Assembly: GCA_023014365.1 (NCBI GenBank)
Contig: JAEBUN010000011.1
Coordinates: forward strand, 310,001 to 374,000
Direction: 5' to 3'
Source: Lepiota brunneoincarnata
Taxonomy: Eukaryota; Basidiomycota; Agaricomycetes; Agaricales; Agaricaceae
DNA: 64,000 bases
Both the position numbers and the translations under genes were made by a program. Of this stretch, positions 17,321 through 51,688 are shown piece after piece (positions within the stretch are counted from its first letter, which is position 1; every line of letters starts with the position of its first letter). Under the pieces are notes generated by a model. It was not told the DNA's origin, searched no databases, and saw only the letters and a program-made list of their open reading frames with translations.

Positions 17321-17339
17321 CACCTCCAAAGACAACGAA

Positions 17340-20300
17340 GTCTTCACAGGGCAGGTCCAAGAGCAGAACCTCCATACGCACATTGAATTATTCGATTCAG
17401 GGACATCCAGGCATATCTCACCATATTGAGATGCCTTTGTAAAACTGCAGAGCATCCCCCCTCGACCCCTTAAGGCTGCCAACAAACAGAGTTTCAGTGC
17501 AATTGGGATCGGCAATATAATCCTTGACTTACCAAATGGCAGTTCCACCTCAAAACTGCATTTATCCAATGTCCTGTACTCACCTGAGGCTGGGTACACC
17601 CTCATATCCATTGGATGACTTGACAAAGCTGGATATATGGTCACATTTGCAAATGGCAGATGTATTATTTGTGAACTGGGTGGAAACAAAATAGCCAAGA
17701 TCCCATGAACCCAAGCAGCCCTGTACAAACATGTCAGGGAAGGAGAAATTGAGGTGAACACTGTCTGTGAGACACTCACTCTCGACAAGATGCATTGATG
17801 GCTTGGCCACATTGCACCAGCAGCCATGAAAAGACTTTTACACAAAGGAATAGTGATCAGTTTACAACTAGACTCCAATGGAGACACAAACCTGTCCTGC
17901 GATTCATGTATATTTGCAAAATCAACACAGCAGCCAATTGCAAAGGCTTGGCAAGGCACAGGGGCAACTAGCTTTGTCCAGGAAATATACTCCGATGTGT
18001 GGGGGCTTGCCAAAACAGAGTCATGAAGGGAATGTAAATACTACATTACCTTCACTGATGACTATTCTCGATGGATACATGTGGACTTCCTATCAAATAA
18101 ATCTGACACCTTTGATGCATACAAATGGTTTGAGGCATGGTGCAAGATGCAGTTCCAAGCTCATGTGAAGGCCCTACATTCAGACAGAGGTGGAGAGTAC
18201 ACTGGGAATAATTTTCAGCAGTATCTCAGATCGCAAGGCACAGAGATCAAGCTCACCATGCATGATACTCCCCAGCACAACAGAATAGCTGAACATCATA
18301 ATTGCACCATCATGGAACGATTCCAAGCCATGAACTACATTGCTCATCTCCCAGAATACCTGTGGCCTGAAGGAGTTTGCCACATTGTGTGGCTAATGAA
18401 CAGAACAGGGACAAAAGCAATTGCAGGGACAATGCCCTACAAGGTCCTGTACAGCAAGAAACCAGATCTTTGAGCAGTACACGAATGGGGAGAGGAATGC
18501 TGGGTGCATGAGCCAGGGGTAAGTAAAATGGCTGATCATGCTAAAAAGGGCTGGTGGCTGGGTTTTGACCCAGAAAGCAATGGCATATGAGTCTGGATAC
18601 CTGCCACAGGTGCTGTGAGGGTAGAACAAAACATCCGTTTCAGAAAGGAGGCAAATCTTGAGGGGGAGAATATGCCAATCAGTGAGATTCACAGTGAGCA
18701 ACCACTCACTATGCACCAGACCACCATACAACCCTCAAGCCAGCCACAAATAAGTGCTGAAACCCCTAGCAAGCCACTAGAGGTCCCAACAAACCCCCCA
18801 GAGTCAGTGGTACAACTGCCAACAAAGGCAGACAACCAGGACCTACCCCCGAACAACTGTCCACAACGTATCTGCATGCCAAGCCAAAAAGCTTGCAAAA
18901 TCCTTGAGGGAACAGCCATAACAATGGCTGAGGAGCTAGATTGGGAGGATGTGCATGCCCTAGCAGCTGAAATGGAGTCTGTTGAGGCATTGGAACCAGG
19001 AAGCCTCAAAGAGGCTAGAGAACAAGTGGACTGGCCACTATGGGAGAGTGCAATAAAGGAGGAGTTAGCTACCCTCAAAGCTGCAGGGACGTGGGAACTA
19101 GTGGATGCACCACCTGGTGTGAATCGAGTTGGCTCAAAGTGGGTATTTTGAGCCAAGAAGAACCCAGCTGGCAATGTTGTCAAGTACAAGGCTAGGCTCA
19201 TCACGCAGGGATTTTCGCAGGTGCCTGGAGTAGATTACTTTGATACATTTGCTCCAGTAGCATGTCTGGCATTGATTCAGGCAGTGCTGGCCATTGCAGT
19301 GGAAAGGGATGTGGAGTTGCACCAGATAGACATAAAGGGTGCTTACCTAAATGGTCAGCTGAATGACAACAAAGTCATTTACATATCACAGCCTCCTGGT
19401 TACTGCAACCCCCTACATCCTCACAAGCTCTGCTGCCTCCAAAAAACTCTCTATGGACTCAAACAGTCTGGCCAACAATGGTATCAAAAATTATGTGAGA
19501 TCCTGGTGGACAATCTTGGCTTCACAAGATGTGAAGTTGATCAGAGTGTGTTTTTTAAAGATACACCTCCCGATCTCACCATCATTCTAGTACATGTTGA
19601 TGACTGCACACTGGCAGCCACTACCATTGCTCTAGTTGCCTGGACAAAGTCCAGAATATCCGGCTTTGTTGAAATTTTGGACTTAGGAGAGCTGTACTGG
19701 CTCTTAGGCATTGAGATCAAACAAGACCATGCAAACTGAAAAATTTTCATGTCCCAGTGATCCTACATTGGCACCTCACTTCATTGCTGTGGTTTGGAGG
19801 ATGCTAAACCACTCAGTGTGCCAATGAACCCATCCACCCACATTACTGTCAATGCAGCACTGAAATCAACAGCCGAAATCGCTTGAATAGCCCAAGTTCC
19901 TTATCAGGAAGCTGTGGGCACTCTCATGTATGCTGCCCTAGGCACTCATCCCAACATTGCATATGCCATTCAACACTTTTCCCGCTATTTGAAGAACCTG
20001 GGTGAGGCCCACTGGGATGCTGTCAAGTGTGTTTTTTGCTACCTCAAGGGTACTCACAATTTTTGGCTCACTTATGGAGGCCACAGCCAAGATCTTGCAG
20101 GGTACAGCGATGCAGATAGCAACATGGCTGAGGACCATTGCGCTACATCTGGCTATGTGCTCATTATCAATGGAGGGGCTGTTTCCTGGAGTGCAAAACA
20201 GCAGGAGATAGTCACTCTATCAACAATGGAATCTGAGTACATAGCAGCAACCCATGCAGCTAAAGAGATTCTTTGGCTGTGCTCCCTTATTTCACAGGTT

Positions 20301-21303: not shown

Positions 21304-21688
21304 TGTTACCTGGGTTAGGGGTTCACTCTTGAGTAGCACAGAGTTCGACACAGGATGTCTATACAGACTTGGTCCTATCCTACTAAGCATGACTTGGAGA
21401 CGACAGAGCACTATAGTCCAGCTGGTTTAGGGGCAAAGAGATATAGGAGGGAAGAACTGTATAACACTAAGATAAGGATACAAGGTATTGTACTGTATCC
21501 TTATATACTTCTAAGTGTGGTTGTACTCCTACTATAATAATCTGGACCAGAGTAACTATGAGTCAGAGATAAGGAACATGAGGTGTATACTAAGAATAGT
21601 CCTTCTGATGTACACTACTGATGGTTTCATAGTGACATGGGAATGTAGATTAAAAATAACTGTCCTTCTGATAGAACTTCTGATAACA
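21304..21688 (-). mobile_element. C3 3' LTR
   Basis: Plus strand starts TGTTACCTGGG and ends TGATAACA, 385 bp. It follows directly after the beta stop (21727-21729). Confidence 0.93.
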
Positions 21689-21726
21689 TTAGGTCTGTTT
21701 CTAGAGTTGTTTTCCATTACAACTTG

Positions 21727-22457
21727 TTAGTTTTCTTCCTCTGGGTATTCAGCTAGGTAATTTGGCTCATAGTAGTCAACTTGGGGTTGGTCGGTGGAGT
21801 CTGGTCAAGGGGGAATGATGGGGGAGAAAGTGGGAGTGGGAGTTCTGTAGAGATTGAGTACAGCGGTGGTTTCTGGGGATGGAGGTTGTCCTGGATAGGA
21901 GATGTTGTATAAGAGGTGTCTGAAATGAAGACTTTCTATCCTTTCTTCTGGTGGGGTAGTTGGTTTTTCTTCAGAAGGAACCGCATGGTTCTCCTGTGAT
22001 GTTTGATTCAGTGATGTCATCGTAATATTCCTCGTAGTAATCGTTGTTGGTGAGATCAATGTATCGATGGTGAGTTGTGGGAGTGGTTGAGGGACAGGTT
22101 GTTGGATTTCTGGAATAGGGGGCATGTCGAGTCTTTCAATTTGGACACTTGGTCCATTTATGACAGGGTTGGAAGACTGCACAATGGGGGTATCAATATT
22201 TGATGCAGTCATAGGAGTAGTGCCCTGGGGCATATTGTTTGCATCCAAGGCATGCGAATTGGGGGCAGTCCATGGCCCAGTGTCCAGTATGTCTACATTG
22301 GATGCAGACTGATCTGTCAGTGGTTTGGGGGTTGGTTCATGTGTGAATGGGGTTGGGGGAGTTCCAAATTGGGATGTTGTTATTGGTGATGGTGTGGGTG
22401 GTGCTCTTGGTGGGGGTGAGAAGTCTGAAGGGATTTCTGACATTGGCGGGCTTCTTT
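21727..22457 (-). pseudogene. C3 alpha/beta overlapping ORFs, 3' half
   Basis: Beta frame: open from 22457 to 21805 (SEIPSDFSPPP..., ...PHFRH-like text), then one TGA (ancestral codon lost), then VDYYEPNYLAEYPEEEN and TAA at 21729-21727. Alpha frame, shifted by one: zinc knuckles CIQCRHTGHWAMDC and CLGCKQYAPGHYSYDC, then YIDLTN. In this copy the Ser/Pro region upstream reads into the knuckles in one frame (FRLLTPTK), which shows the ancestral alpha frame that is shifted in C2. The 5' half lies at 30440-31340. Confidence 0.75.
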
Positions 22458-22844
22458 TGTTATCAGAAACCACATCAGAAGGACGGTTATTTTTAGTTCA
22501 CATTCACATGTCACTATGAAACTATCAGTAGTGTACATCAGAAGGACTATTCTAGTATACGCCTCATGTTTTCTTATCTCTGACTCATAATTACCCCTGG
22601 TCTGGACCATTATAGTAGGAGTACAGCCACACTTAGAAGTATATAAGGATACAGTACAGTACCTTGTATCCTTATCTTAGTGTTATACAGTTCTTGCCTC
22701 CTATACCTCTTTGCCCTTAAACCGGCTGGACTATAGTGCTCCGTCATCTCTAAGTCACGCCTAGTAGGACAAGACCAAGTCTGTATAGACATCTTGCCAC
22801 GAACGCCGTGCTACTCAAGAGCGAACCCCTAACCCAGGGTAATA
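22458..22844 (+). mobile_element. C2 5' LTR
   Basis: 387 bp, TGTTATCAG to GGGTAATA (GGGTAACA in the 3' LTR). An extra A inside the CCCGGG site at 22836 and an extra C in ATTACCCC distinguish it from the 3' copy. Confidence 0.95.
22640..22684 (+). promoter_or_regulatory. C-family LTR promoter: TATA box and predicted transcript start
   Basis: TATATAA at 22640-22646; 32 bp downstream of its start lies TTATCTTAGTGTT (22672-22684). That 13-mer is the exact reverse complement of the PBS at 22846-22858, so it is predicted to be the mRNA 5' end used as primer. The arrangement is kept in the other C LTRs. Confidence 0.7.
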
Positions 22845-25204: not shown

Positions 25205-28200
25205 GTGGCCATCACCGCCCTGATAGACTCAGGAGCCCAAGGGAACTTCATCTCCCACAAAGTCGTTGAACGACATGGTTATCAAACCAAATGGCTGGAC
25301 CAACCAATTCCACTCAGTAACGTTGACGGAACTGATAATCAACATCGAACTCAACTCCATCGCCATGGACATAATGGCTGGAAAAACCTCTCAACCCGAG
25401 GAAAATCCCGAAGAATACGTCAACCTGTCAAATGTTGACCTCGACACCTTCTCTCTAGAAAGAGAAATGAACCCCATGCTTCTAACCCCATTAGAAGTAA
25501 ACGCCAAAGCGACACACGCTACAACGCTCCACAATGAGCAACATAACCCGACAAGATCGGCAAACCAAAAAGGAAAACAACCGGAATCAAACAAGGAACC
25601 ACCCGAGATCCCTCGGAGATTTGCCCGATGGGCAAAAATATTCAACAAGAAAGCCTCCGAAAGATTCCCACCATCAAGAACATTCGATCATGAAATCGAA
25701 CTAAAACCGACGTTTGAAGCGAAATCAATGAAACCTTATCAAGTGGCACCTGCCGAGGAAAAAGCATTGAAGGAATTCATAGACTGAAAACCTCCGAAAA
25801 GGCTACATCTGCCCCTCAAAATCCCCTATGGCATCACCCTTCTTCTTCGTTGCCAAGAAAGGAGGAGACCTCCGACCTTGCCAAGACTATCGTTATCTAA
25901 ACGATCACACTGTCAAAAACGCCTACCCAATCCCCATGATTTCCTCTATCATGGATAAACTCAAAGGAGCTAAGTACTTCACTAAGCTCGACGTCCGCCT
26001 AGGATACAACAACGTCAGAATCAAAGATGGCGATCAATGGAAAGCAGCGTTCAAGACTCCTATGGGTCTTTTCGAACCAACTGTTATGTTTTTCGGACTT
26101 TGCAACAGTCCCGCAACGTTCCAACACATGATGGACACACTATTCTCCGAAATAATGGAGAAAGGAGGAATTATCATCTACATGGATGATATCCTGATAT
26201 ACGGTAAAACCCAGGAAGAAACCAACCGACTTACAGAAAAAGTACTACAAATCCTGCAGGAGAATGACCTCTACCTCAAAACGGAGAAAGGCGAGTTCAA
26301 CAAACAACGACTCGAATACCTAGGCATGATCATCACGCCAGACGAGATCAAAATGGCTCCCGGAAAACTCAAAGGAATAGAAGACTGGCCAGTGCCAAAA
26401 ACAGTCCGACACGTCCGAAAATTCATCGGATTCTGTAACTTCTACCGGAAGTTCATCTGCAGCTACTCCCACCACACCAAACCCCTGAACCAACTCCTTT
26501 CCAAATCAAATAAATTCGAATGGAAAGAAGAACAACAGAAAGCGTTCGAAACGCTCAAGAACGAATTCTTAAAGGAACCGGTACTCCTCATGCCCGACTC
26601 CACAAAACCCTTCGAAATAGAAGCCGATGCTTCTAAATTTGCATCAGGAGCTGTCCTGTATCAATATGACATCAACGGAATACGGAAACCCGTATCATTC
26701 TATTCAAAGACGTTCGGACCAGCGGAACATAATTACGACATCTATGACAGGGAACTCCTCGCTATCATCTGAGCCCTTGAAGAATGGCGCCACTTCCTCC
26801 TTGGCAGCCCCCATACTATCCGTATCAGAACAGACCACCAAAACCTCACATACTGGCGTAAACCCCAGAAAATCAACCGCTGACAAGCACGATGGGTCCA
26901 GACCCTCGCCGACTACAACTTCAAATTAGAACACGTCCCAGGATCAAAGATCCCTGCACCAGACGCCCTATCAAGACATCCAGACCATATCCCTGATGAA
27001 GATAATGACAACGAAGATGTCACCATGCTCCCAAACAACCTCTTTGTCACTACTGCCGACATAGAAAACCAAAACCTGATCACAATACTTCCAGAACACC
27101 TCTTTATCGCCACTGTCAATATGAAACTCCAAGAAAGAATCACGGAATCACCCAAATACGATGCTAGAACCACCGAAGCGTTCAAACTCCTAAAGGAAAC
27201 CCACCCTAACGCTGCCGATAAGGACTTCGGAACAGTTCCAACCTCAAATGGTTCACTCCTCACGTTCCAAGAACGTGTCATTATTCCAGAAGACCTCCAA
27301 CTCAGACGCGATGTCATCGCAAGATACCACGACCACCCTACACATGGCCATCCTGGAGAACAGGAAACATACCGCCTTGCCAAGAAAGAAGTATATTGGC
27401 CAGGAATGTCAACGTTCATAAAGAACTACGTCAAAGGCTGTCCAGAGTGTCAGCAACATAAAATCATACGCAGACCGGATCGCGCACCGACTCAACCGAT
27501 CCCTCCACCAGCATCTAAACGCCCATTTGCCCAGATCTCATGGGATCTTATCACCGGTCTACCGCCTAGTGCCAGCCATAATGCGATATTGTCCGTGGTG
27601 GACCACGGCCTTACGAAGGGGGTAATTTTCATCCCAACCTCAGATCGATCAAACGCCGATGACATCGGACGACTATTAATAGAAAAAGTCTTCACCAGGT
27701 TCGGACTACCCGGCAAAATCATATCAGATCGAGACCCCAGATTCGCCGCCAACTCCCTCCGACAGCTAGCCAAACGCCTTAACATCCAACAGGCATTCTC
27801 AACCGCATACCATCCCCAGACAGATGGTTCCACAGAACGATACAATCAAGAAATCGAGACCTATCTCGCCATATACTGCACCAGGAATCCCCTTGACTGG
27901 TCAGAAACCCTCCCTATCGCCGAATTCGCACACAACTCCAAAGTACATGCCTCGAGGCAGAAATCCCCATTCGAACTAATCATGGGATACAACCCTCCAC
28001 CGATACCCATGGTAATGGAAACATCGAACTTTCCATCAGTAGACGAACGCATCAGACTCCTTGATGATGCCAGAAAAGAAGCACACGCGGCACATCAACT
28101 CTCTGCCAACATTATGAAACAAAGAACCAGAAGAACTGTCAAACCCCTTGAAACACATCAAAAAGTATGGCTAGAAGCCAAGAACCTCAAACTTCCCCTC

Positions 28201-28641
28201 ATTTCCAACAAAATATCTCCAAAACGACTAGGACCCTTCCTTATCACAGAAGTCCTATCACCGCTCACCTACAAACTAAAACTTCCGATCAAATGGAAGA
28301 TACATCCAATATTCCACAGAAACCTTCTAACTCCATACACCGAAACAGAAGCATACGGATCTCATCCGACTCCACCACCACCAGACATCATCAATGAAGA
28401 AGAGGAATACGAAATAGAAGCCATTCTAAATCACCGACAACATCGTGGAAAACTCCAATACTACGTCAAATGGAAAGGATACTCCCACACGGAGAACGAA
28501 TGGATCACTGACGAAACACTTCATGAAAACGCCAAAGAATACTTGACCGAGTATAAAGAAGCTCATGGAATTCTCCAGAAAGAACAGGAACCCACCAGAA
28601 CCACCCAAAGACAACTTCGCTCCCACACCAAACGTACTTAA
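25205..28641 (+). pseudogene. C2 pol: protease, RT, RNase H, integrase, chromodomain
   Basis: Protease: ALIDSGAQGNF at 25217, then about 260 bp missing relative to C3. A T insertion at 25785 shifts the frame before RT. From 25828 to 28641 one frame holds RT ([28 protein letters not shown] at about 26180), RNase H ([15 protein letters not shown]), an integrase zinc domain (HGHPGEQETY...CPECQQHK), the core (SWDLITGLPP, IISDRDPRF, HPQTDGSTERYNQE) and a chromodomain (EYEIEAILNH...YYVKWKGY...W) near 28400-28530. TGA stops at 26770 and 26881 interrupt RNase H. The chromodomain class targets integration to modified histones. Confidence 0.93.
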
Positions 28642-28643
28642 AG

Positions 28644-29769
28644 ATGCCCATGAACCTCGACCTCACTCGCCCCAAAACTACTCCCCTGTTTTCAACAACA
28701 CCTTCACCAACCTCCTCATCATCCTCCATAGTCATTATAAACAATGCAAGCGTCGAACATAATACACTTCAAACAACTCCCGTTCCGGCCCCGTCTCCCT
28801 ACACCCCCTCTCACACCTTCGCCGCAACATACACCTCCCCCAGGGATGAGACCCCCGACCCCAACGACACCCCAGAACCAACAGCCGCCCCAGCCGCCTC
28901 CCTTAGATACCATACAGCTGGAGTACGATCATATGGACCAGATCACCCTTCTGACGGAGATCTGTGCGAGGCTGCCACCGACGGAGCCTTTACGACTAAA
29001 TTGGAACACACTCCAATTTCAGAATACGACCGACAACTCTGGTACGACTATACCCACCACGTACGACAGACTAAGGCTCTCGCTACTGCGTACAATACGC
29101 AACGTACCTGGGCAGAATCACTCGAGCAACTTCTCCGCTCAAGATCGGGCCTCATGTCCGAGGTGTCAAAGAACCTACCCAAACGAGATGAGGTACATAC
29201 CTCGCAGCCCCCCACCACAACCATCCCCACCACTACCACGACGACCACTGCCGCTATCATCACCACCGTCCCCAGTAAGGGAAGAAAGCCCGCCAGTATC
29301 AGAAATCCCTTCAGACTTCTCACCCCCACCAAGGACACCACCCACACCGTCGCCAGTAACGACGTCCCTGATTCGGAACTCCCCCAATCCCGTTCACCCA
29401 CGAACCAACCCCCGAACCACCGACAGATCAGTCTGCATCCAATGTAGACACACAGGACACTGGGCCATGGATTGCCCCCAATTTGCCTGCCTCGGATGCA
29501 AGCAATATGCCCCAGGGCACTACTCATACGACTGCATCAAATATAGATGCCCCCACTGCGCTGTCTTCCAACCACGCCACAAACGGACCGAATGCCCAAG
29601 TCGAAAGACTCGACACGCCCCCTACTCCAGAAATCCGACAACCCGTCCCTCGACCACTCCCACAACTCACCATCGATACATCGATCTCACCCACGACGAT
29701 TATTACGAGGAATGCTACGATGACGTGGCCGAATCAAACATCACAGGAGAACCATGCGGTTCCTTCTGA
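28644..29769 (+). CDS. C2 ORF alpha: triple zinc-knuckle protein downstream of pol
   Basis: ATG 28644 is two bases after the pol stop (MPMNLDLTRP). The frame runs to 29447 (267 codons) with a helical middle part (EYDRQLWYDYTHHVRQTKAL). A T inserted in a CpG at 29369 moves the ancestral frame, which then continues to 29769 with knuckles CIQCRHTGHWAMDC (CX2CX4HX4C), CLGCKQYAPGHYSYDC and CPHCAVFQPRHKRTEC (both CX2CX6HX4C), and YIDLTHDD. C3 shows both halves in one frame. The knuckles suggest nucleic-acid binding. Position matches env or accessory genes; no envelope features are seen. It overlaps ORF beta almost entirely. Confidence 0.65.
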
Positions 29770-30012
29770 AACAAACCAAATCACCCCACCAGAAGAAAGA
29801 ATCGAAAGTCCCCATTTCAGACGCCTTCTATACGACATCTTTTACCCAGGACAACCCCCGTCCCCAGAAACCGCCACCATACTCGATCTTCACAGAACCC
29901 CTACTCCTACCTTCTCCCCCGTCATTCCCCCAGGCCAGACTCCACCGACCTACCACAGATCGACTACTACGAACCAAACTACCTAGCCGAGTACCCGGAA
30001 GAAGGAAACTAA
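28744..30012 (+). CDS. C2 ORF beta: Pro-rich protein in the +1 frame of alpha
   Basis: ATG 28744 begins MQASNIIHFK, then Pro-rich stretches, a folded-looking part (LEYDHMDQITLLTEICARLP...YDRLRLSLL) and CPRCQRTYPN. The frame is open to the CpG insertion at 29369. The ancestral frame then continues as the one open over 29483-29986 (SNIDAPTALSS..., PHFRRLLYDIFYPGQ). After a second shift near 29935 it ends DYYEPNYLAEYPEEGN at TAA 30010. C3 and C1 keep the same order. Function unknown; whether it is expressed by reinitiation, leaky scanning or frameshift is not visible. Confidence 0.55.
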
Positions 30013-30049: not shown

Positions 30050-30434
30050 TGTTATCAGAAACCACATCAGAAGGACGGTTATTTTTAGTTCACATTCACA
30101 TGTCACTATGAAACTATCAGTAGTGTACATCAGAAGGACTATTCTAGTATACGCCTCATGTTTTCTTATCTCTGACTCATAATTACCCTGGTCTGGACCA
30201 TTATAGTAGGAGTACAGCCACACTTAGAAGTATATAAGGATACAGTACAGTACCTTGTATCCTTATCTTAGTGTTATACAGTTCTTGCCTCCTATACCTC
30301 TTTGCCCTTAAACCGGCTGGACTATAGTGCTCCGTCATCTCTAAGTCACGCCTAGTAGGACAAGACCAAGTCTGTATAGACATCTTGCCACGAACGCCGT
30401 GCTACTCAAGAGCGAACCCCTAACCCGGGTAACA
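30050..30434 (+). mobile_element. C2 3' LTR
   Basis: 385 bp, TGTTATCAG to GGGTAACA, TATA box at 30231-30237. Followed by the duplication TCTTT and C3 alpha/beta sequence. Confidence 0.95.
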
Positions 30435-30439
30435 TCTTT

Positions 30440-31340
30440 CCCTTGCTGGGGACGGTGGCAATGATTGTGGCAGTGTCACTTACCTGGGTCCAGACATATA
30501 TAGTAGGAGCACAGCCACACATAGTAGTATATAAGGATACTGTACCATACCCTTGTATCCTTATCTTAGTGTTATACAGTTCTTGCCTCCTATACCTCTT
30601 TGCCCTTAAACCGGCTGGACTATAGTGCTCCGTCGTCTCTAAGTCACGCCTAGTAGGACAAGACCAAGTCTGTATAGACATCTTGCCACGAACGCCGTGC
30701 TACTCAAGAGCGAACCCCTAACCCGGGTAACAGTGGTCATCATGGTAGTGGTGGGGGAGACAGTTGTGGTGGGGGGCTGTGAGGTATGTACCTCATCTCG
30801 TTTGGGTAAGTTCTTCGACACCTCAGACATGAGGCTTGATCTTGAGCGGAGAAGTTGCTTGAGTGCTTCTGCCCAGGCATGTTGCATATTGTATGCAGTA
30901 GCGAGAGCCTGAGTCTGTCGTACATGGTGGATATAGTCATACCAGAGTTGTCTGTTGTATTCTGAAATTGAAGTGTGTTCCAATTTAGTGGTAAAGGCTC
31001 CGTTGGTGGCAGCCTTGTGCAGATCTCTGTCAGAAGGGTGATCTGGTCCATGTGGTCGTACTCCAGCTGTATGGTATCTAAGGGAGGTGGCTGGGGCAAT
31101 TGTTGGTTCTGGGGTGGCATTGGGGTCAGGGGTCTCATCTCTGAGGGAGGTGTATGTGGCAGCAAAGGTGTGAGAGGGGGTGTTGGGAGATGGGGCTGGA
31201 ATGGGAGTTGTCTGAAGTGTAGTATGTTCAATGCTTGCATTGTTGACGATGATGATAGAGAACAATGAGGAAGTTGGGGAGGGTGTTGTTGAGAAAGGGG
31301 GAGTGGTTTGGGGGCGAGTGAGGTCAAGGTTCATGGGCAT
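30440..31340 (-). pseudogene. C3 alpha/beta overlapping ORFs, 5' half
   Basis: Alpha starts ATG 31340 (MPMNLDLTRPQ), directly after the pol stop, and stays open to the truncated LTR at 30731. Beta is open over 31327-30740 in the +1 frame, with HLPTPPLTPLLPH, LEYDHMDQITLLTEIC and CLRCRRTYPN. Both frames are free of stops for about 590 bp here, as in C2. The rest continues at 30479-30440 and 22457-21727. Confidence 0.75.
30480..30731 (+). mobile_element. 5'-truncated LTR-C inside C3 alpha/beta
   Basis: Matches the LTR from the TATA-proximal part (ATATATAGTAGGAGCAC) to GGGTAACA; the first ~130 bp are absent. C3 coding sequence flanks both sides (30440-30479 and 30732 onward). No clear target duplication. 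The right two thirds are almost identical to the C2 LTR. Confidence 0.8.
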
Positions 31341-38783: not shown

Positions 38784-38800
38784 TATGTTGGCAGAGCAGA

Positions 38801-39502
38801 TGTTATGAACAGTCCAGACCGGGAGGAACAAGAATTATTGTTTGACTTTACAAGATGGGTACAGGAGACTACAGACCAACTACGGGCACAAGAATACGAA
38901 GACGAGGAAGGGGAATATTACACTGCCATGCAGGACCTGGCAAGAGAAGCAGGAATGGAGATAACTTTGGAGGATATATTGGAATACCCCGAGGACGAGG
39001 AAGATAACCATGGATCAACCGACCCAACCTCCGATACGGATGGAAGCACTGAGAGAATGGAGAGCAAGAACGAGAGAGGACTCCATGGAGATACAATCGG
39101 GAGAAGAAGATTATGAGTCAGAGGAAAGCGATGGAACATCGCACAGCAGTAGCGAGAGTACTGACTCATTGTAATATAAATAACGCTAGGATGCCATCAG
39201 CCAGGATGTGCATCATGGTCAAGGACTGCGCACGACCAGTAGAACAGCCAAGTAACCTATAACGAGTATATAGCACCTCATAGGTATATAAGGCCTGTAC
39301 AAGTAGAGATTAAAGCCTCAAGCTTTAATCTTGTTAACAGCGGTCAGTTTACCTCTCTGCCTTAACTTGGCGTCTTCCCTCGTTATCTCATTGAGCGCGA
39401 TCCACTAAGCTCTATAAGGCCAACCGTCTCGGACACCTTGTAGAGTGATTGAAGGCCAGTCTCCAGTTATCCTTGGATACAGAAGGAGCACGGATCATAA
39501 CA
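38801..39502 (+). mobile_element. Solo LTR family A (702 bp) with U3 ORF
   Basis: TGTTATGAACAG to ATCATAACA; duplication GCAGA (38796-38800, 39503-39507). The U3 ORF starts at the ATG in the first bases (NSPDREEQELL) and is frameshifted near 39065. TATATAA at 39285-39291; AAGCTTTAATCT at 39320-39331 is the self-priming segment. Confidence 0.95.
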
Positions 39503-41312: not shown

Positions 41313-41458
41313 TATGAGCTTATGCTTGTGTGCCTTCGGCACACCTATTTGGGCAACTTTAGCATTATAGAAAGATTTGAGTGAAAACAAAGTTTTTTGG
41401 AAGTCACATGACTTTGTTTACTAATGTTTGGTCTTTACTGAATGGATCACATGATCTT
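41313..41458. other. Unknown sequence between MITE and element A
   Basis: Contains a small hairpin GTGTGCCTTCGGCACAC at about 41328-41344. No coding frame. Its right edge is the break in the A 3' LTR. Confidence 0.4.
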
Positions 41459-42934
41459 GTTTTCGTTCTCGCTCTCCATTCTCTCAGTGCTTCCATCCGT
41501 ATCGGAGGTTGGGTCGGTTGATCCATGGTTATCTTCCTCGTCCTCGGGGTATTCCAATATATCCTCCAAGGTTATCTCCATTCCTGCTTCTCTTGCCAGG
41601 TCCTGCATGGCGGTATAATATTCCCCTTCCTTGTCTTCGTATTCTTGTGCCCGTAGTTGGTCTGTAGTCTCCTGTACCCATCTTGTAAAGTCGAACAATA
41701 ATTCTTGTTCCTCCCGGTCTGGACTGTTCATAACATTATCCCCTTCGTAAGGTCTGATGTCCTCATCAGACATATCCTCAGTATAATCCGACAGGCTCTC
41801 CTGTAATGTTTGATTTGGCGATGGGGTCCCAGTCGAAGTATGGGTCGGGTTCTGGGGAGTCGCTTCGGTAGCTTGGTGGTCTGGGGATGGCGGGTCTTGG
41901 GTGAGGTCGATGACGATGGGTTCTCTGGAGTGAATGGTGGCGGGTGCGCCGAAGGATCGGTTCAGGAAGTCGGTGGCTTCCGCTAGCAGATGTGGTGGTG
42001 GCGTTGGTGGTCGGAATGACGACGGGGGCATTTTGAATTCGGGTGCGGAGGGGTCTGGCTGAAGCGGGGCGCTGCTCGGTGCTTGCAACAATGTGTCGAA
42101 TATTGTTGTTTGTGGTTTCGCGTGTGAGGGATCGAGCTCTGCTTGGTATTCCTCATGGGCGGCGATACAGGCCAGGTACCATACTTGCGGGTTGATGCTG
42201 GTAAGGGTTTCTCTCGCAGTGCTTCTCGTAATGGCCTGGGGCAATCTTTCGACAATATCGACATTGGTAGCGCGGGCATCCTGCTTTGATATGGCCAAAT
42301 CGACGGCAGCAATTGCAGCGAGTTTGGGTGGTGGATAAGTGAGTGGTGGTAGTCCTGATGGGGGCGTCATTAGAAGTAGATATAGCTTGTACAACACTTG
42401 ATGGTTGGTTACTCGTATCCACCATGGGAGGGTTGGAAGGTTGGGTGGTGGTCCCGATAGGTAGGATAGGGCGGTCCTGACTTCCGCTTCCATTGCTCGG
42501 GCTTGGGATCGGACTCTCAAACGGGAATTCGGTGAGAGCGGTTGATAACATGGCAGAAATGGTATCGCGGTCCTGTTCCTCTGTTGCGCTAGAAAGAATA
42601 GTGGCGCATAGTTTTTCGAATTCTGTTGTTCGGTCGTGGACGAGGCGCTTGTGATACAGAAGAGCAGTAAATGTCTTCCAGCAGGTGTCGACCAGGGGTA
42701 CCATCGCTGGACTGCATTTAAGACGGGTTCCGGTAATATGAAAGGGAACTTCGTGTAAAAGGATGGATCGTATCTCGGGTTGGTTGGAGGGAAGGAAGGT
42801 ATGCCGGATGATATAAGGACTGTTGGTCCTGTCTGGTTGGTCGTCAGCGGTATCGGTGGCAGGGTTAGGTTGGCTATCTCCTGTGACGCGGTTCGCCAGG
42901 GATATGATTCTTTCCCGGATGAGAAGGCGTCCAT
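41447..42934 (-). CDS. A ORF beta: 495-codon protein running into the 3' LTR
   Basis: Open from ATG 42934 (MDAFSSGKES) to 41447, in the +1 frame of alpha. The first 780 bp overlap alpha; this part reads like protein (LPWWIRVTNHQVLYKLYLLLM cut short, VDIVERLPQA, WYLACIAAHEEYQAEL). After alpha ends: Pro-rich, a VIDLTQD motif, an acidic tail (SDEDIRPYEGDN), then without a stop into the LTR (NSPDREEQELL...). In this copy the ORF ends seven codons before the intact U3 ORF would diverge, because the LTR is broken. In a complete element it would gain about 40 more residues ending TDSL. Function unknown. Confidence 0.6.
   Translation of the reverse strand: MDAFSSGKESYPWRTASQEIANLTLPPIPLTTNQTGPTVLISSGIPSFPPTNPRYDPSFYTKFPFILPEPVLNAVQRWYPWSTPAGRHLLLFCITSASSTTEQQNSKNYAPLFFLAQQRNRTAIPFLPCYQPLSPNSRLRVRSQARAMEAEVRTALSYLSGPPPNLPTLPWWIRVTNHQVLYKLYLLLMTPPSGLPPLTYPPPKLAAIAAVDLAISKQDARATNVDIVERLPQAITRSTARETLTSINPQVWYLACIAAHEEYQAELDPSHAKPQTTIFDTLLQAPSSAPLQPDPSAPEFKMPPSSFRPPTPPPHLLAEATDFLNRSFGAPATIHSREPIVIDLTQDPPSPDHQATEATPQNPTHTSTGTPSPNQTLQESLSDYTEDMSDEDIRPYEGDNVMNSPDREEQELLFDFTRWVQETTDQLRAQEYEDKEGEYYTAMQDLAREAGMEITLEDILEYPEDEEDNHGSTDPTSDTDGSTERMESENENKIM
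41459..41735 (-). mobile_element. A 3' LTR, partial
   Basis: 277 bp, from TGTTATGAACAG (minus strand start at 41735) to a break at 41459 inside the U3 ORF. The TATA box and R-U5 part are missing. Confidence 0.9.
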
Positions 42935-42992
42935 CGTTGTCTGGCTCTGGGAGGTCTGGAGTGGTTGCTCGAGTGTTGGGTGGTTGGGTCAT
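42153..42992 (-). CDS. A ORF alpha: zinc-knuckle protein overlapping the pol end
   Basis: ATG 42992 (MTQPPNTRAT) lies inside the last 119 bp of pol, in another frame; 279 codons to 42153. Helical middle (TTEFEKLCATILSSATEEQD), Ser/Thr/Pro linker, then CNCCRRFGHIKAGC (CX2CX4HX4C) and CRYCRKIAPGHYEKHC (CX2CX6HX4C). The knuckles resemble those of C alpha, including APGHY. It differs from Gag, which has its own knuckle at 46750. A nucleic-acid-binding accessory protein is inferred. Confidence 0.7.
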   Translation of the reverse strand: MTQPPNTRATTPDLPEPDNDGRLLIRERIISLANRVTGDSQPNPATDTADDQPDRTNSPYIIRHTFLPSNQPEIRSILLHEVPFHITGTRLKCSPAMVPLVDTCWKTFTALLYHKRLVHDRTTEFEKLCATILSSATEEQDRDTISAMLSTALTEFPFESPIPSPSNGSGSQDRPILPIGTTTQPSNPPMVDTSNQPSSVVQAISTSNDAPIRTTTTHLSTTQTRCNCCRRFGHIKAGCPRYQCRYCRKIAPGHYEKHCERNPYQHQPASMVPGLYRRP

Positions 42993-45900
42993 TGGTGGGG
43001 TTGTCTAATTTGTGGGCCTTTTTATATTCTTCAATGACTTCCTTGGCGTTCTCCAGGTTTGCTTCTGGCTCCCAGGAATCCTCAGTGGGAAGGTATCCTT
43101 TCCATCTGACTAGGAATTGATACTTGTTCCGGAATTTTCTGTGGCGCAGTATTGACTCGACCTCGTATTCTTCTTCTCCATTTACAAGGTTGGGTGGTGG
43201 GGCTGTGTTGTATTCCCCATGTGTATCGTTCTCTTCTGCAGGCATTAGGAGGCTTGCATGAAACTTGTTGTGGATCTTCCATTTGATGGGTAATTTTAGT
43301 TCATAGGTTACAGGTCCGAGTTTTCTTGTTATGGTGAAGGGACCTTCTCGGCGTTGGGCCAGTTTCTTTGAGGCGTACTGAATTGGGAGGTTGCGGTTGT
43401 CAAGCCAAACCTTCTGTCCAACTTTTAGATTGATATCTGGCTGGTTATATCTTGCAGCCATTTTTAGTCTGGCTTGTTCATGCGCAGCTTGGGCTTCTTG
43501 GCGTATCTTGGCGAGGTATTTAAACTTCTCTCCTATTGCTGGAATGTTCGTTGGCTCCTCGGAGGTCGGGAATCCTTTGGGGCTTGATCCATAGAGGAGT
43601 TCAAATGGGGTATGTTGGTGTTCAGCGTGTGTTTTCGAGTTGTGGACATATTCCAGGAGTGGGAGTGCTTTTACCCATTTGTTCGGGTTCGATGAGCAAT
43701 AGATGCCAAGGTAGAGTTCTATTTCTTGATTGAATTGCTCTGTTTGTCCGTCTGTCTGGGGGTGGTAGGCGGTAGAGAGTGCTTGTTCGATTCCGAGTTG
43801 TTTGTAGAATTCTTTCATGGATTTGGCAGCAAATCTGGGGTCGCGATCACTGAGAACTTTCTCGGGAAGGCCAAATCTAGAGAATAGCCGTTTGATAAGA
43901 ATTTCGGCGATCTTGTCCGCGTTGGCGGTTTTCACAGTAGGTTCTAGAATTATCCCCTTCGTAAGCTGGTCAACCACGACCAGTATAGAATCATGGGGTC
44001 CATCCGGGGGTAGGTCTGTGATAAGATCCATCGAGATGTTCGAGAATGGACGGGTAGAACGGGGTCCAGGGATGGGTTGAAGCGGTGGTTTTAGGGGGTG
44101 GCGATTGATCTTGTATTGTTGGCAAGCACCACATCCTTTGACGTAGTTTTTGACAAATGATCGCATCCCGGGCCAGTAGGCGTATTCCTGGAGTTTTCTA
44201 GTTGTTTCTGCGATTCCAGGGTGTCCTGCGGTGGGTGAGTCGTGTACTCTTTGCAGTAAGCGGCGTCTGAGGTGTAAATCTTGTGGTATAAATAGTTTTC
44301 CTTGAACACGTGGGTGTCCTGAGTCATCTTCTTGGGCGATGTCGGTCTGTTTCTTTTTCTTCCACAGCTCTTTTATTTCTTGTTTAGTATTTTCGTCGAT
44401 AATATGGATATGTTGTGGCTGTTCTGAGGTGAAGAATTTGTCAGGGAGTGCAACGACCTGTTTGTTGTCTCTTGTCTTGGGTTCATGATCGGGTCGTCTG
44501 GAAAGGGCATCTGCTGGTCCATTTTTCTTTCCAGGGATATGTCGGATTTCGATGTCAAATCGTTGCATGTAGGCAATCCATCGGGCTTGTCTTCTGCTGA
44601 GGTCTTCAGGTTTTCTCCAGCGGCGAAGGTTGTCGTGATCTGACCATACGATGGTCTTGTGTGATGATCCTTCTATGTGGTGACGCCATTCTTTGAGTGC
44701 TCGGATAATGGCGAAGAGTTCCTGTTCGGAGCAATGATAGTTGCGTTCGGCTGGTGAGAATCCTTTCGAGAAGTATGCGACTGGGTGTTTAACTCCATTG
44801 TTGTCGCGTTGGAGTAGGACTGCTCCTGATGCAAATAGTGATGCGTCGCATTCAATTTCGAAGGGTTTGTCTCGGTCGGGGACCATTAATACCGCTTCGC
44901 TTTGGAATTTTCTCTTGAGAGTATCGAAGGCGTTCTGGCATTCTTCTGTCCATTCGAATTTCTTGGTTTTGGACATTAGGGCATTAAGAGGTTTTGCCCA
45001 TGTGGCGTATTGGTGTATGAATTTTCGATAGAAGTTGCAAAATCCTATGAATTTTCGTACGTCGCGCGGGGTAGTTGGTGTTGGCCATTCAGCGATGCCT
45101 TTGAGCTTTGCTGGGTCCATCGAAACTGAGTCGGGAGTGATAATAACTCCTAGATATTCGAGTCGTTGTCGTTCGAATTCGCATTTCTCGGTTTTGAGGT
45201 ATAGATCGTTGTCCTTGAGTATCTTGAGTACTTCTCTTGTGAGGCGTCGAAGTTCTTGTTTTGTTTTTGCGTGAATGAGGATGTCGTCCATGTAAACGAT
45301 TACTCCTCCCTTGTCGATGAGTTTTCGGAATAATGAGTCCATCATGGTTTGGAATGTTGCTGGGGAGTTACACATTCCAAAGAACATAACCGTGGGTTCG
45401 AATAATCCTCGGGGTGTCCTGAAGGCTCCTTTCCATTCATCTCCTTTGCGTATGCGGATGTTGTTGTATCCTGCTTGTACGTCGAGTTTGGTAAAGTACT
45501 TTGATCCTCGGAGTTTGTCGAGAATATGAGAGATGAGGGGGAGGTTGTACGCATTTTTGACGGTATGCTCGTTGAGGTACCTGTAGTCTTGACAGGGGCG
45601 TAGTTTTCCATCTTTCTTTCCTACGAAGAAGAAAGGTGATGCCATTGGCGATTCGGATGGTCGAATGTATCCCTTTTGAAGGTTTTCTTCTAGGAACGTG
45701 TCGAGTTCCTTTTCTTCATTGAGGGAGAGTCGGTAGGACTTCATGGCAATTGGTTTGAATGATTCCTTGAGTTCAATTTTGTGATCCCATGGTCGTTGTG
45801 GGGGGAATCGTTCGGCTTGTTTCTTGCTAAATACTGGGAGGTATTCGTGGAATTCCGTGGGTACGACTTTTCTTGGGTCGTCGTTTTTCTTTTCTCCGTG

Positions 45901-46520
45901 TTGTACGGCGAGGAATTGTGATGCGGAGGCTTTGAAGTTGATTTCTTCGAAGCTTGTGGGCTCTAGTGTGGAGATGTGGTTGAGTTGGTCGTTGTAGATC
46001 CAATCGGGTTCCATGGATTGGATGAGTTCTCGGAATATAGTGTTGTCCCAACGTTCGTTTCTCCAGCGTAGTTGTTTGGCATCCCAGTCGATGTCTGGGT
46101 TGTGTTCTGCAAGCCAAGGGAATCCAAGGATGAGTCTTGGGCTTCCGAGGGAGACTACTTTTGGTTTGATCTCCATATTCTTCCCGTTAACCGTTAGGTT
46201 GAGGGTCGTGTAGTGGGTGGCTGTTCCATTTTCGTTAACAGATCCATCGGCATTTCGTACTTCGATGGGTCGATCGAGGGGTGTTGTTTTGAATGAATGT
46301 TGTTTGACCATTCCGGGGTCAATGAAGTTTCCTGCTGCTCCTGAGTCGAGTAGGGCGAGTAGTTCCACGCTTTCGGGTCCTTCCTTAGTGAACTTGTGTT
46401 TTCGGATTCGACAGGGTAGATGTATTACGCGTGCTGACGATTCCTGTAACTTTACAACATTAATATCATTTTGTGAATAGGAAAGGGAAGGAGGTCTTTG
46501 TGGAGGGCTAGACGTGGTGG
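42874..46520 (-). CDS. A pol: intact protease-RT-RNase H-integrase-chromodomain polyprotein
   Basis: 1164 codons from a GTG at 46368 to 42874, and open upstream to about 46540, where it overlaps the gag end in the -1 frame. Protease [54 protein letters not shown] (about 45290). RNase H IECDASLFASGAVLL, with HRNY-like ends. Integrase HPGIAETTRKL...CGACQQYK, SMDLITDLPP, VLSDRDPRFA, HPQTDGQTEQFNQE. Chromodomain EYEVESILRHRKFRNK...LVRWKGY...SWEP (about 43030-43180). All catalytic residues are present. Likely made as Gag-Pol. Confidence 0.95.
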
Positions 46521-46529
46521 CTAGTCTCC

Positions 46530-48391
46530 TTAGGCAAAATCCTTAACCAGAGGGGCATCTGGGTGGTTGGATTCATTTGCAAAATGTTCATAGATGTCCT
46601 CGACTTCTTCGTTGGTTGCATCTTCTAGTATGTTGTATAGCAAGTTCTTTTTCCTGTAGCTTGCTTGTCTTCTTCTGGATATCGCATTTGACCAATTTCT
46701 GGCATCCAAATTGCAGGGTAATTCGGATCGGCAATATATTGTCTTTTTGGTGGGGCATTCGCGGGCGAAGTGTCCAGTCTTGTGGCAGTTGAAGCATCTC
46801 TTTTCTTTGAGATCCTTTCTTTGGGCGTCCGTGAGGATTGCATTGAGGGCTTTGCGGGTGCGTTCTTGTACCAACTGGTGGAGTCTGTCTTCTTCGGTCT
46901 CCTCGTCTTCATCAGCTTCCTCGGCGAGTAGATCTGGCTCATCCTCAAAGTTGAGGTTGTAGACTGCTTCGGCGAGTTGGTCAATATCCATTGCGTTAGG
47001 GTCTGTTGCTTGATAGGGCAGTGGGACACGGCGCGTAAAAGCATTTCTTTTCCCTTTAAATGGGCGAGTGCGCGAAGTCGTTGAAAACGAGGGAGTTCCT
47101 CGAGTTTGCATATAGTCGTGTTGAGTTTGTAGTATTTGATATGCTGTTCAAGCTTGCTTGAACCAGTCGCTAAGTTTGTTTCCTGGATTGAGGCTAATTG
47201 TCTTGATTGCGACGGGGCGATCCAGCCCGTTCTTGAAATAGTTGACCGCCGCCACTCCATCTCCAAGGTCGGCCTGATAGGCAAGTATCTGGAACTGGGA
47301 TATGTAATCATCGATATATCGTCCATTCTGTTTGAGGTGGCGGATTCTGTCCATTGCGTTGGCGGGGACATTGTTTGGGGCGAAGGATGTATCGAGTCCT
47401 TCGAGAAATTTCTTCCATGTCGGAAGGGTCTGGCTTCCATCAAGTTCTTTGTTTGATTCCAAGAATGCTCCTCTCCATGTTGCGGCGGGGCCGGTGGACA
47501 TGTATGAAAGGGCAAATTGTATCTTGGTCTTGTCATCGGAAAAGGCTCCTGGCTTTGCATCGATGTATAGTTGTACTGCATCCTTCCAGAGGCGGAAGTA
47601 GTCGGTCTCTCCATTAAAGGTTGGGGGTGTGTTGATTTTTGCGGAGGAGGCCATATTGTTAATGTCAGAGGTTGTGGATTCCTCGTCGGAAGTGTGAATA
47701 GACCCGGTAGTGGGGCTAACTTCGGATGGTTCGGATTGTACAGGGGAACTGGATCGAGGCAGTGAGTGTACCGGTGATCCAAGTGGTGATGCGAGGGGTG
47801 AGAATGTTCTTGGGGGTTTCTGTTGCGAAGTGTTGTCGCTAGTTCTTGTACTTGTTGAGGGTTGAGGACCGGAGGATGGGGTAGATGTTCTATGAATCGG
47901 CTCCCCGAGCTTTGAGCGGGTAGAGGTGGCAGTTCTTTCAGGTGGTGGTTGTTTAGGTAGGGATTGAAGAACTGATGCTGGGGGTGCTGGGTATCCTGGG
48001 TCTTCTGTTCGACGTTGAACTCTCTCGGTAGGTTGTGTAGGGTACGGTGCGGAACCAGAGGGTGAACGAGTGAGGGGTATAGGTTTTGTTTTCTTTTTAG
48101 GGTCCGTGGTGGAGGGGGTGTGAAGTCGGGTTCGGAGTCGGTTGTCGACCAGTCAGAACTGTTGGATTCTTCGTAGTCGGTGGCAAGGGGGTCGTTTCGG
48201 TTTGTAGACAGGGTGAAGAGGGAAGAAGTCGAAGGTGAAGGTGAGGGTGAATAAACAACGCTTGCGGGTGCGTTATCCCAATCGACGCTTGAAGGTGCGG
48301 ATGACCTGTATACAACGCTTACGGGTGCGTTATCCCAATCAACACTTAAAGGTGTGGATGACCTATCAACACTTTCGGTGCGTCTGACCAA
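46530..48391 (-). pseudogene. A gag, one TGA and one frameshift
   Basis: N-terminus from 48391 (MVRRTESVDR) with a duplicated unit SVDWDNAP(V/A)SVVY. The frame changes by one base around 48070-48130. It then continues Ser/Pro-rich (SPLASPLGSPVHSL) into the capsid part at 47654 (FNGETDYFRLWKDAVQLY, DRIRHLKQNGRYIDDYISQF). A TGA at 47148-47150 (CGA expected) is followed in frame by the nucleocapsid part with the knuckle CFNCHKTGHFAREC at about 46750-46800, ending LVKDFA. Only two lesions separate it from an open gag. Confidence 0.85.
48256..48366. repeat. 57-bp tandem repeat in the A gag N-terminus
   Basis: Units 48256-48312 and 48313-48366, each with GGGTGCGTTATCCCAATC. It codes the duplicated SVDWDNAP unit, so unit number changes keep the frame (57 = 3 x 19). 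Confidence 0.85.
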
Positions 48392-48581: not shown

Positions 48582-49279
48582 TGTTATGATCCGTGCTCCT
48601 TCTGTATCCGAGGATAACTGGAGACGGCCTTCAATCACTCTACAAGGTGTCCGAGACGGTTGGCCTTATAGAGCTTAGTGGATCGCGCTCAATGAGATAA
48701 CGAGGGAAGACGCCAAGTTAAGGCAGAGAGGTAAACGACCGCTGTTAACAAGATTAAAGCTTGAGGCTTTAATCTCTACTTGTACAGGCCTTATATACCT
48801 ATGAGGTGCTATATACTCGTTATAGGTTACTTGGCTGTTCTACTGGTCGTGCGCAGTCTTGACCATGATGCACATCCTGGCTGATGGCATCCTAGCGTTA
48901 TTTATATTACAATGAGTCAGTACTCTCGCTACTGCTGTGCGATGTTCCATCGCTTTCCTCTGACTCATAATCTTCTTCTCCCGATTGTATCTCCATGGAG
49001 TCTTCTTCGTTCTCGCTCTCCATTCTCTCAGTGCTTCCATCCGTATCGGAGGTTGGGTCGGTTGATCCATGGTTATCTTCCTCGCCCTCGGGGTATTCCA
49101 ATATATCCTCCAAGGTTATCTCCATTCCTGCTTCTCTTGCCAGGTCCTGCATGGCGGTATAATATTCCCCTTCCTCGTCTTCGTATTCTTGTGCCCGTAG
49201 TTGGTCTGTAGTCTCCTGTACCCATCTTGTAAAGTCGAACAATAATTCTTGTTCCTCCCGGTCTGGACTGTTCATAACA
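48582..49279 (-). mobile_element. A 5' LTR (698 bp)
   Basis: TGTTATGAACAG (minus strand) to ATCATAACA. U3 contains the ORF 49275-48907. TATATAA on the minus strand at 48797-48791, and the self-priming segment starts 35 bp further on. Four other copies or parts of this LTR are in the window. Confidence 0.95.
48907..49275 (-). CDS. U3 ORF of family A LTR (122 codons)
   Basis: Starts at the ATG four bases into the LTR (MNSPDREEQELLFDFTRW), then a helical acidic part (QEYEDEEGEYYTAMQDLARE), EDILEYPEGEEDNH, and a Ser/Glu/Asp tail ending SSSESTDSL. It is intact here. It lies upstream of the TATA box, so the genomic RNA would carry it only in the 3' LTR, where it forms the C-terminus of beta. Strongly acidic; function unknown. 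Confidence 0.6.
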   Translation of the reverse strand: MNSPDREEQELLFDFTRWVQETTDQLRAQEYEDEEGEYYTAMQDLAREAGMEITLEDILEYPEGEEDNHGSTDPTSDTDGSTERMESENEEDSMEIQSGEEDYESEESDGTSHSSSESTDSL

Positions 49280-49391
49280 TATAGTGCTCCATCGTCTCCA
49301 AGTCACGCTTAGTAGGACAGGACCAAGTTTGTATAGACATCCTGTGTCGAACCCTGTGCTACTCAAGAGCGAACCCCTAACCTGGGTAACA
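49280..49391 (+). mobile_element. LTR-C remnant (right 112 bp)
   Basis: Begins TATAGTGCTCC, the same TA-containing site used by Tc1-B in the C1 LTR, and ends GGGTAACA. It is the target into which element A jumped. It lies in front of C1 alpha/beta. Confidence 0.88.
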
Positions 49392-51265: not shown

Positions 51266-51303
51266 CAAGTTGTAATGGAAAACAACTCTAGAAACAGACC
51301 TAA

Positions 51304-51688
51304 TGTTATCAGAAATCCATATCAGAAGGATGGTTATATTTAGCTTAAATTCCCATGTCACTATGAAATGATCAGTAGTGTACATTAGAAGGACTATTCT
51401 TAGTTTATGACTCATTTCTTATCTATGACTCATAATTACTCAGGTCCAGACACTTATAGTAGGAGCACAGCCATACTCAGGAGTATATAAGGATATAGTA
51501 CATCTCTATGTATCCTTATCTTAGTGTTATGCAGTTCTTGCCTCCTATACCTCTTTGCCCTTAAACTGGCTGGACTTATAGTGCTCCATTGTCTCCAAGT
51601 CACACCTAGTAGAACAAGACCAAGTCTGTATAAACATCTTGACTCAAACGCTGTGCTACTCAAGAGTGAACCCCTAACTTGGGTAACA
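51304..51688 (+). mobile_element. C1 3' LTR
   Basis: 385 bp, TGTTATCAGAAATCC to GGGTAACA, then CCCAC, matching the left flank of the 5' LTR 43 kb away. The first bases (ATCAGAAATCCATATCAG) are shared with the 5' LTR at 8779, not with C2. Confidence 0.93.

Follow-up and report, generated by a model that had tools for sequence, protein, structure and literature searches.

Additional sense-oriented ORFs located after pol are described for plant Ty3/gypsy elements (PMC7264820), and a survey of fungal Ty3/gypsy elements, most of which are described with one or two ORFs, likewise records an 'add. ORF ... unknown function' (PMC2864245); the excerpts of both sources agree with the initial annotation of the locus studied here, which had named gypsy elements with an extra ORF after pol as known. 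According to the excerpts, LTR retrotransposons of bdelloid rotifers carry a family-specific ORF3 after pol that is often not an env gene, with products including esterases, exonucleases and membrane proteins (PMC5408684), and the CERV accessory protein of Cer1 represents a non-env LTR-retrotransposon protein that acts on the RNA of its element (PMC10309623). The word 'overlap' is absent from the plant review, the rotifer paper and the Cer1 paper (PMC7264820, PMC5408684, PMC10309623), and the excerpts of the plant review and of the fungal survey (PMC2864245) describe no overlapping pair after pol. Searches of the open-licence PMC literature retrieved no account of a dual-coding pair after pol of an LTR retrotransposon.

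Here, we analysed a stretch of 64 kb (the window) from the 55.6 Mb genome of Lepiota brunneoincarnata, which contains many transposable elements, among them members of two chromodomain Ty3/gypsy families, A and C, that both carry two ORFs (ORF3 and ORF4) 3' of pol. The genome gave 35 hydrophobin matches, compared with none in 14 control genomes, which speaks for a fungal source. Whereas the post-pol ORFs in the plant and fungal excerpts are single extras, ORF3 and ORF4 share more than 1 kb in two selected frames; ORF3 differs from the rotifer ORF3 products in its zinc knuckles, and from CERV, which is without an overprinted partner in the Cer1 excerpt, in being accompanied by ORF4. The analysis confirmed that the overlapping ORF pair is real, with corrections to the first reading that are given below. 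We consider it probable that the two families possess a post-pol pair that overlaps by 1.0-1.15 kb, is under selection in both frames and is predicted to yield both proteins from one mRNA by leaky scanning.

The integrase-chromodomain regions of the two families share 52% identity across 443 aligned residues. Family C is represented in the window by the copy C2 and by a second, truncated copy on the minus strand, C3 (Table 1). The LTRs of C2 have the TG...CA ends and the 5-bp target duplication of chromoviruses, and the domain check of C pol covered its integrase-chromodomain part. The Pfam domains of A pol stand in chromovirus order; its LTR ends also read as TG...CA and form the inverted pair TGTTATG/CATAACA, and C2 is the copy in which the target duplication was read, the A copy being cut. 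LTRs of both families (41735 and 49279 in A; 30050 and 22458 in C) start with TGTTAT. Further A-family LTR copies at 38800-39502 (98% identity), 11033-11734 (87%) and 6572-7221 (83%) suggest a long-lasting activity of family A. At 49300-51688 and 21304-21840, the window contains older fragments of family C with 81-89% similarity to C2 or C3; the DNA motif for SNITGEP, a peptide at the ORF3 C-terminus discussed below, occurs at 50986-51005 and 21987-22006, within these fragments or close by. Other elements of the window comprise Tc1/mariner-type transposase ORFs at 59154-60155 (+) and 11813-12577 (+) (Pfam DDE_3, HTH_Tnp_Tc3_2), a zinc-knuckle ORF at 16923-17429 (+) that is perhaps a gag remnant (zf-CCHC E 0.00067, just below cut-off), and a 520-aa ORF at 753-2315 (-) whose best Pfam hit (E 0.09) is not a confident one.

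Table 1. Coordinates of the C2, C3 and A element features within the window.
Feature	Position	Strand	Remarks
C2 5' LTR	22458..22842	+	99.5% identical to 30050-30432; target duplication TCTTT at 22453-22457
C2 pol, integrase-chromodomain part	27025..28641	+	Pfam Integrase_H2C2, SH3_Tf2-1 and Chromo over cut-off; rve just below
C2 ORF3 (zinc-knuckle protein)	28644..29769	+	broken by 1-nt length change at 29369; knuckles in 3' part
C2 ORF4, +1 to ORF3	28744..30012	+	broken by the 29369 length change and one further length change
C2 3' LTR	30050..30434	+	target duplication TCTTT at 30435-30439
C3 ORF3	30639..31340	-	truncation of element precedes knuckles
C3 ORF4	30740..31240	-	ATG at 31240; both frames open; truncated
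A ORF4, +1 to ORF3	41447..42934	-	523 aa in L099; enters 3' LTR
A 3' LTR, 5' part only	41462..41735	-	copy cut at 41462; 99.3% identical to 49006-49280; encodes part of ORF4 C-terminus
A ORF3, two zinc knuckles	42153..42992	-	cut by premature stop in window copy; 404 aa in L099
A pol	42874..46368	-	RT, RNase H, integrase, chromodomain; 3' end overlaps ORF3 and ORF4 starts
A probable gag	46530..47654	-	two ORFs, 47654-47148 and 47111-46530; second with own CCHC knuckle (Pfam)
A 5' LTR	48582..49279	-	far end approximate; ends TGTTATG...CATAACA

In intact copies of family C, ORF3 encodes 374 aa with three zinc knuckles and ORF4 encodes 422 aa; the ORF4 ATG is located 100 nt downstream of the ORF3 start in the +1 frame, and the overlap amounts to 1,022 nt. 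In C2, three long ORFs are seen instead (28644-29447, 28744-29769 and 29483-29986), a staggered appearance that had been ascribed to a one-base change at 29369, and a 1-nt length change was found at exactly this position, intact copies showing two frames. Because of this change, the ORF at 28744-29769 is a chimaera of the ORF4 start and the ORF3 knuckles. The earlier description of a knuckle-bearing ORF with a partner in its +1 frame stands for ORF3 and ORF4 of intact copies, but the assignment of the C2 ORFs to these two roles had to be corrected. The ORF4 region of C2 stops 37 nt short of the 3' LTR. In C3, both frames are jointly open over 588 nt (31327-30740), in accordance with the approximately 590 bp reported before, and two long overlapping ORFs after pol were located in all three elements for which they had been proposed (C2, C3 and A).

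Four young copies of family A (L099-L102) have an identical open-frame layout, with an ORF3 of 404 aa (two knuckles), an ORF4 of 523 aa that begins 58 nt after ORF3, and an overlap of 1,154 nt. The start spacings initially given, 100 nt in C and 58 nt in A, were recovered in intact C copies as well as in the window and young copies of A. As for the overlap lengths, the value of about 1.0 kb holds for C, but the 0.78 kb given for A applies to the window copy only, in which the overlap is shorter because ORF3 contains a premature stop. Pol of A extends 118 nt into ORF3, and approximately 60 nt (42934-42874) are therefore open in three frames. A point absent from the first reading is that A ORF4 runs into the LTR: positions 1256-1700 of L099-L102, counted from the ORF3 ATG, match the 5' LTR of the window copy with 97% identity, so that the 3' LTR starts within ORF4 and about 123 of its 523 codons are LTR sequence.

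A genome search with the C2 chimaera returned 122 matches, the best-scoring of 1,126 candidates, and 90 loci (L001-L090) were analysed; counts involving the starts are based on 89 copies, since L017 is without the start region. Both starts are ATG in 85 of these 89 copies, ORF3 is full-length in 40, ORF4 in 48 and both in 30 (29 with both ATGs). Regular breakage of one frame in young copies, which the initial annotation had named as the observation that would speak against the pair, was absent, as the youngest C clade (n = 34) contains 26 full-length ORF3, 29 full-length ORF4 and 23 copies with both. For family A, ORF3 is stop-free in 118 of 139 matches to the 279-residue window query (best-scoring of 636 candidates) and ORF4 in 84 of 86 matches to a 495-residue query (best-scoring of 899 candidates), both being lists of top scorers and hence biased towards intact copies. 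Twelve A copies were compared, namely eight older ones (81-86% ORF3 identity) and the four young ones. Most of the tabulated stops in C copies are TGA, which, together with the large share of CpG transitions given below, is the type of decay expected of methylation or RIP. A third family was considered for six loci in which the SNITGEP pattern has a TCC variant, but was rejected, as their translations (three in full) resemble older C copies by eye.

Between the ORF3 and ORF4 starts, AUGs occur in the ORF3 frame only. In C, ORF3-frame AUGs are found at -100 and -94, i.e. with a second in-frame AUG 6 nt after the first, and are followed by the ORF4 AUG at 0; in A, the ORF3 AUG at 0 is followed by the ORF4 AUG at 58. 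No out-of-frame AUG lies between the starts in 87 of 89 C copies, and the two exceptions are in the ORF4 frame, 3 nt before its start. As the ORF4 AUG is the next one after that of ORF3, leaky scanning is suggested: a short mRNA starting near ORF3, either spliced or transcribed from an internal promoter, would be entered by ribosomes that start at the ORF3 AUG or move on to the ORF4 AUG. Pol contains AUGs further upstream, and the ORF3 AUG is the first only given this predicted mRNA start. For leaky scanning, a weak context at the first AUG is expected. In A, C occupies position -3 of the first AUG, and the second carries A at -3 plus G at +4. In C, A stands at -3 of either AUG, so that the first is not plainly weak, a point against leaky scanning, as is the second in-frame AUG of C. 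The frame relation of pol to ORF3 differs between A and C and that of ORF3 to ORF4 is identical, which led to the conclusion that the pair acts as a unit with its own initiation.

It is conceivable, though rather unlikely in our view, that the pair is real and that ORF4 is instead reached by reinitiation or by ribosomes that shift frame or read through from pol or ORF3. Consistent with such routes, C ORF4 is in the pol frame with the pol stop at -105 relative to the ORF4 start (L001, L006, L030), the A ORF4 frame is open for 54 nt upstream of its AUG, and seven of the eight older A copies (L091, L093-L098) have an extra AUG 57 nt upstream of ORF3, which is absent in the young and window copies. 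However, the frame relation of pol to ORF4 also differs between the families, and in C a stop directly precedes the ORF4 AUG, which is itself retained in 86 of 89 copies. Initiation at the AUG of ORF4 by leaky scanning is the preferred reading.

To assess whether the open frames could have arisen by chance, the codons of one ORF were shuffled or resampled among synonyms and stops were counted in the other frame. No stops were observed in any of the four frames, whereas 2.7-4.0 were expected in the C ORF4 frame (P 0.003-0.045), 10.2-10.9 in the C ORF3 frame (stop-free in 0 of 5000 shuffles) and 7.0-9.7 in the A frames (P 0.0006 or less). The third frame of C contained 13 stops against 13.2-13.6 expected and that of A 10 against 16-18, an unexplained deficit. 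With expectations of 2.7-10.9 stops against none observed, the earlier argument that the frame offset shared by C and A is not due to chance was upheld.

Selection was evaluated by classing shared substitutions according to their effect in each frame and comparing them with the number expected for that type of base change in that CpG context. The data comprised 90 copies of C, and eight older copies of A compared with one young copy, all from one genome. CpG transitions were excluded from the fits because they account for 135 of the 250 changes common to at least four C copies in the overlap. The two-frame fit for C, based on 221 changes found in at least two copies, gave omega values of 0.21 for ORF3 (P 1.6e-20) and 0.39 for ORF4 (P 1.3e-6); for A, with 72 changes in at least two of the eight copies, the values were 0.23 (P 2.5e-6) and 0.27 (P 2.3e-5). 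The third frame fitted beside ORF3 yielded 1.37 in C and 1.12 in A. Among these within-genome copies, purifying selection was thus found in both frames of the shared stretch in both families, which is the dual-frame constraint for which the initial annotation had proposed a test. A stricter fit that took six C copies and two A copies as references gave the same two-frame result.

These results argue against the explanation that only ORF3 is a gene and that the ORF4 frame is open because a C-rich sequence holds few stops. The strand does have a strong C bias (GC skew -0.39), and when ORF3 is held constant, 0.3% of codon shuffles and 4.5% of synonymous shuffles leave the ORF4 frame of C without a stop. 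However, for neither frame in either family did any of 200 one-frame-only simulations with uneven constraint along the gene give such low values across the entire overlap; the ORF4-only tails gave ORF4 omega values of 0.24 (C) and 0.19 (A) next to 1.31 and 1.19 for the ORF3 frame; and the part of A ORF4 inside the LTR was constrained as well (omega 0.15, P 1e-5, n = 48). Without CpG transitions, shared stop-creating changes in C ORF4 numbered 1 against 7.4 expected (P 0.005), those in C ORF3 showed a mild depletion (3 against 6.7, P 0.09; 13 against 16.6 with CpG transitions), and those in the third frame amounted to 13 against 7.9 expected. Taken together with the stop counts for A given above, these data make the explanation improbable.

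The strength of the constraint varies with the data and the fit. Changes present in a single copy indicated weaker constraint (omega 0.53 and 0.58 in C, 0.73 and 0.78 in A). When the A overlap was divided into halves, one frame in each half was reached by 3 of 200 and 5 of 200 one-frame simulations, and A ORF4 fitted beside the third frame without ORF3 gave 0.65 (P 0.098). In a strict joint fit of three frames, the non-coding frame was lowered too, to 0.38-0.77 across settings (P 0.3 to 0.005), and the absolute omega values are therefore soft; in the strict fit the short ORF3-only head gave a non-significant 0.39 (P 0.2, n = 27). Between positions 600 and 1000 of C, most changes (36 of 51 and 38 of 63) fall on codon position 2 of ORF4, the fastest of its positions, so that ORF3 is dominant there.

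The distribution of changes over codon positions bears on whether the sequence is conserved for an RNA element, such as one for packaging or priming, rather than for two proteins. Such an element could be seen in a 20-nt stretch at the ORF3 end that varies little: the degenerate DNA pattern for SNITGEP gave 449 raw pattern matches in the genome and 0 for the reversed pattern. In the overlap, however, where ORF4 position 2 coincides with ORF3 position 3, the C changes found in at least two copies are spread 31/118/72 over ORF4 codon positions 1/2/3 (76/74/71 expected); among changes in at least three copies, the ORF4-only tail shows 14/9/52 (23/26/26 expected) and the ORF3-only head 1/20/4 (7.5/9.1/8.4 expected). 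The substitution pattern tracks codon positions and shifts at the gene borders, that is at the ORF3 start and stop, with the ORF4-only pattern appearing beyond the ORF3 stop, which renders conservation as RNA very improbable.

ORF3 is basic (pI 8.7 and 9.5) and nucleocapsid-like. It contains a knuckle of the retroviral nucleocapsid type, CX2CX4HX4C, followed by CX2CX6HX4C with the APGHY sequence, which is present in ORF3 of both families as the initial annotation had stated, and a third knuckle in C. The C knuckle DNA pattern gave 205 genomic matches and its control none, and the C ORF3 knuckle weakly matched retroviral NCp10 in a PDB sequence search (E 0.004). As the probable Gag of A has a knuckle of its own, ORF3 represents a second knuckle protein of the element. 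In the protein database, A ORF3 retrieved one near-identical fragment (P0001, 99%), a joint ORF3 profile found P0001 only, and no relative was found in viral contigs. ORF4 is acidic (pI 5.8 and 4.4), with a net charge of -37 in the last quarter of A ORF4. A ORF4 had no match in the PDB by sequence and no relative among the 7,996 candidates scored in the protein database, and an AlphaFold2 model of the window A ORF4, the one protein predicted in this way, had a mean pLDDT of 41. The sequences VIDLT in the L099 ORF4 (341-345) and YIDLT in the L020 ORF3 (345-349) are what we take to be SUMO-interaction-like motifs.

The position between pol and the 3' LTR is that of env, but an env-like gene is highly unlikely: hydropathy analysis revealed no membrane-like segment in any of the four proteins (maximum 19-residue value 0.47-0.94), and Pfam gave nothing for A ORF3, A ORF4 and C ORF4 and a zf-CCHC match below threshold in C ORF3 (14.9 bits, cut-off 20.8 bits).

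A and C ORF3 are homologous over the knuckles and the C-terminus (E 2e-5), including the common C-terminal SNITGEP, and no sequence similarity was detected between the two ORF4 proteins (E 2.3; hhalign probability 0.1%), for which reason the homology of ORF4 between the families rests on frame and position. Since the knuckles and C-terminus of ORF3 are recognisable across the families and ORF4 is not, it is probable that ORF3 came first and that ORF4 was overprinted on it. Codon usage values of 0.036 (A) and 0.055 (C) for ORF3, -0.024 and -0.053 for ORF4, and -0.064 and -0.009 for the third frame hint in the same direction, a signal too weak to rely on. That only ORF4 is a gene, and ORF3 its by-product, would fit the greater length and clearly selected tail of ORF4 but is hardly credible, because the constraint on ORF3 is the stronger one, its two to three knuckles and C-terminus are common to both families and no ORF4-only simulation matched it, so that this explanation is refuted unless the alignments mislead.

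Judged from sequence, the element is likely to make and require both proteins. ORF3, likely RNA-binding, would be a second protein of nucleocapsid type that acts on the RNA of the element itself; ORF4 would be the accessory partner of ORF3, whose most likely role is to regulate the element RNA or to antagonise host silencing. If true, the pair would offer a naturally occurring model of how a gene is born de novo within a transposable element in which selection is measurable from genomic copies, and would open up the biology of accessory genes in fungal gypsy elements. Annotation that chooses one frame per locus would overlook such pairs.

Viruses provide the best-known cases of long overlapping genes, and the tombusvirus genes p22 and p19 are expressed by leaky scanning. 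The retroviral genes nef or sag extend into the 3' LTR; A ORF4 enters the LTR in the same way, whereas C ORF4 stops before it, and the likeness is one of position only. The excerpt on the tombusvirus p22/p19 genes describes a nested two-frame pair like ORF3/ORF4, but in an unrelated RNA virus (PMC11044054). We tentatively propose that A and C may represent 'complex' fungal retrotransposons, in which an ancient knuckle gene would have borne a second long protein in the +1 frame by overprinting, with the pair kept through wide divergence and one of the two extended into the LTR like nef, and in which ORF4 might be an orphan regulator or silencing antagonist comparable to the nested accessory genes of viruses.
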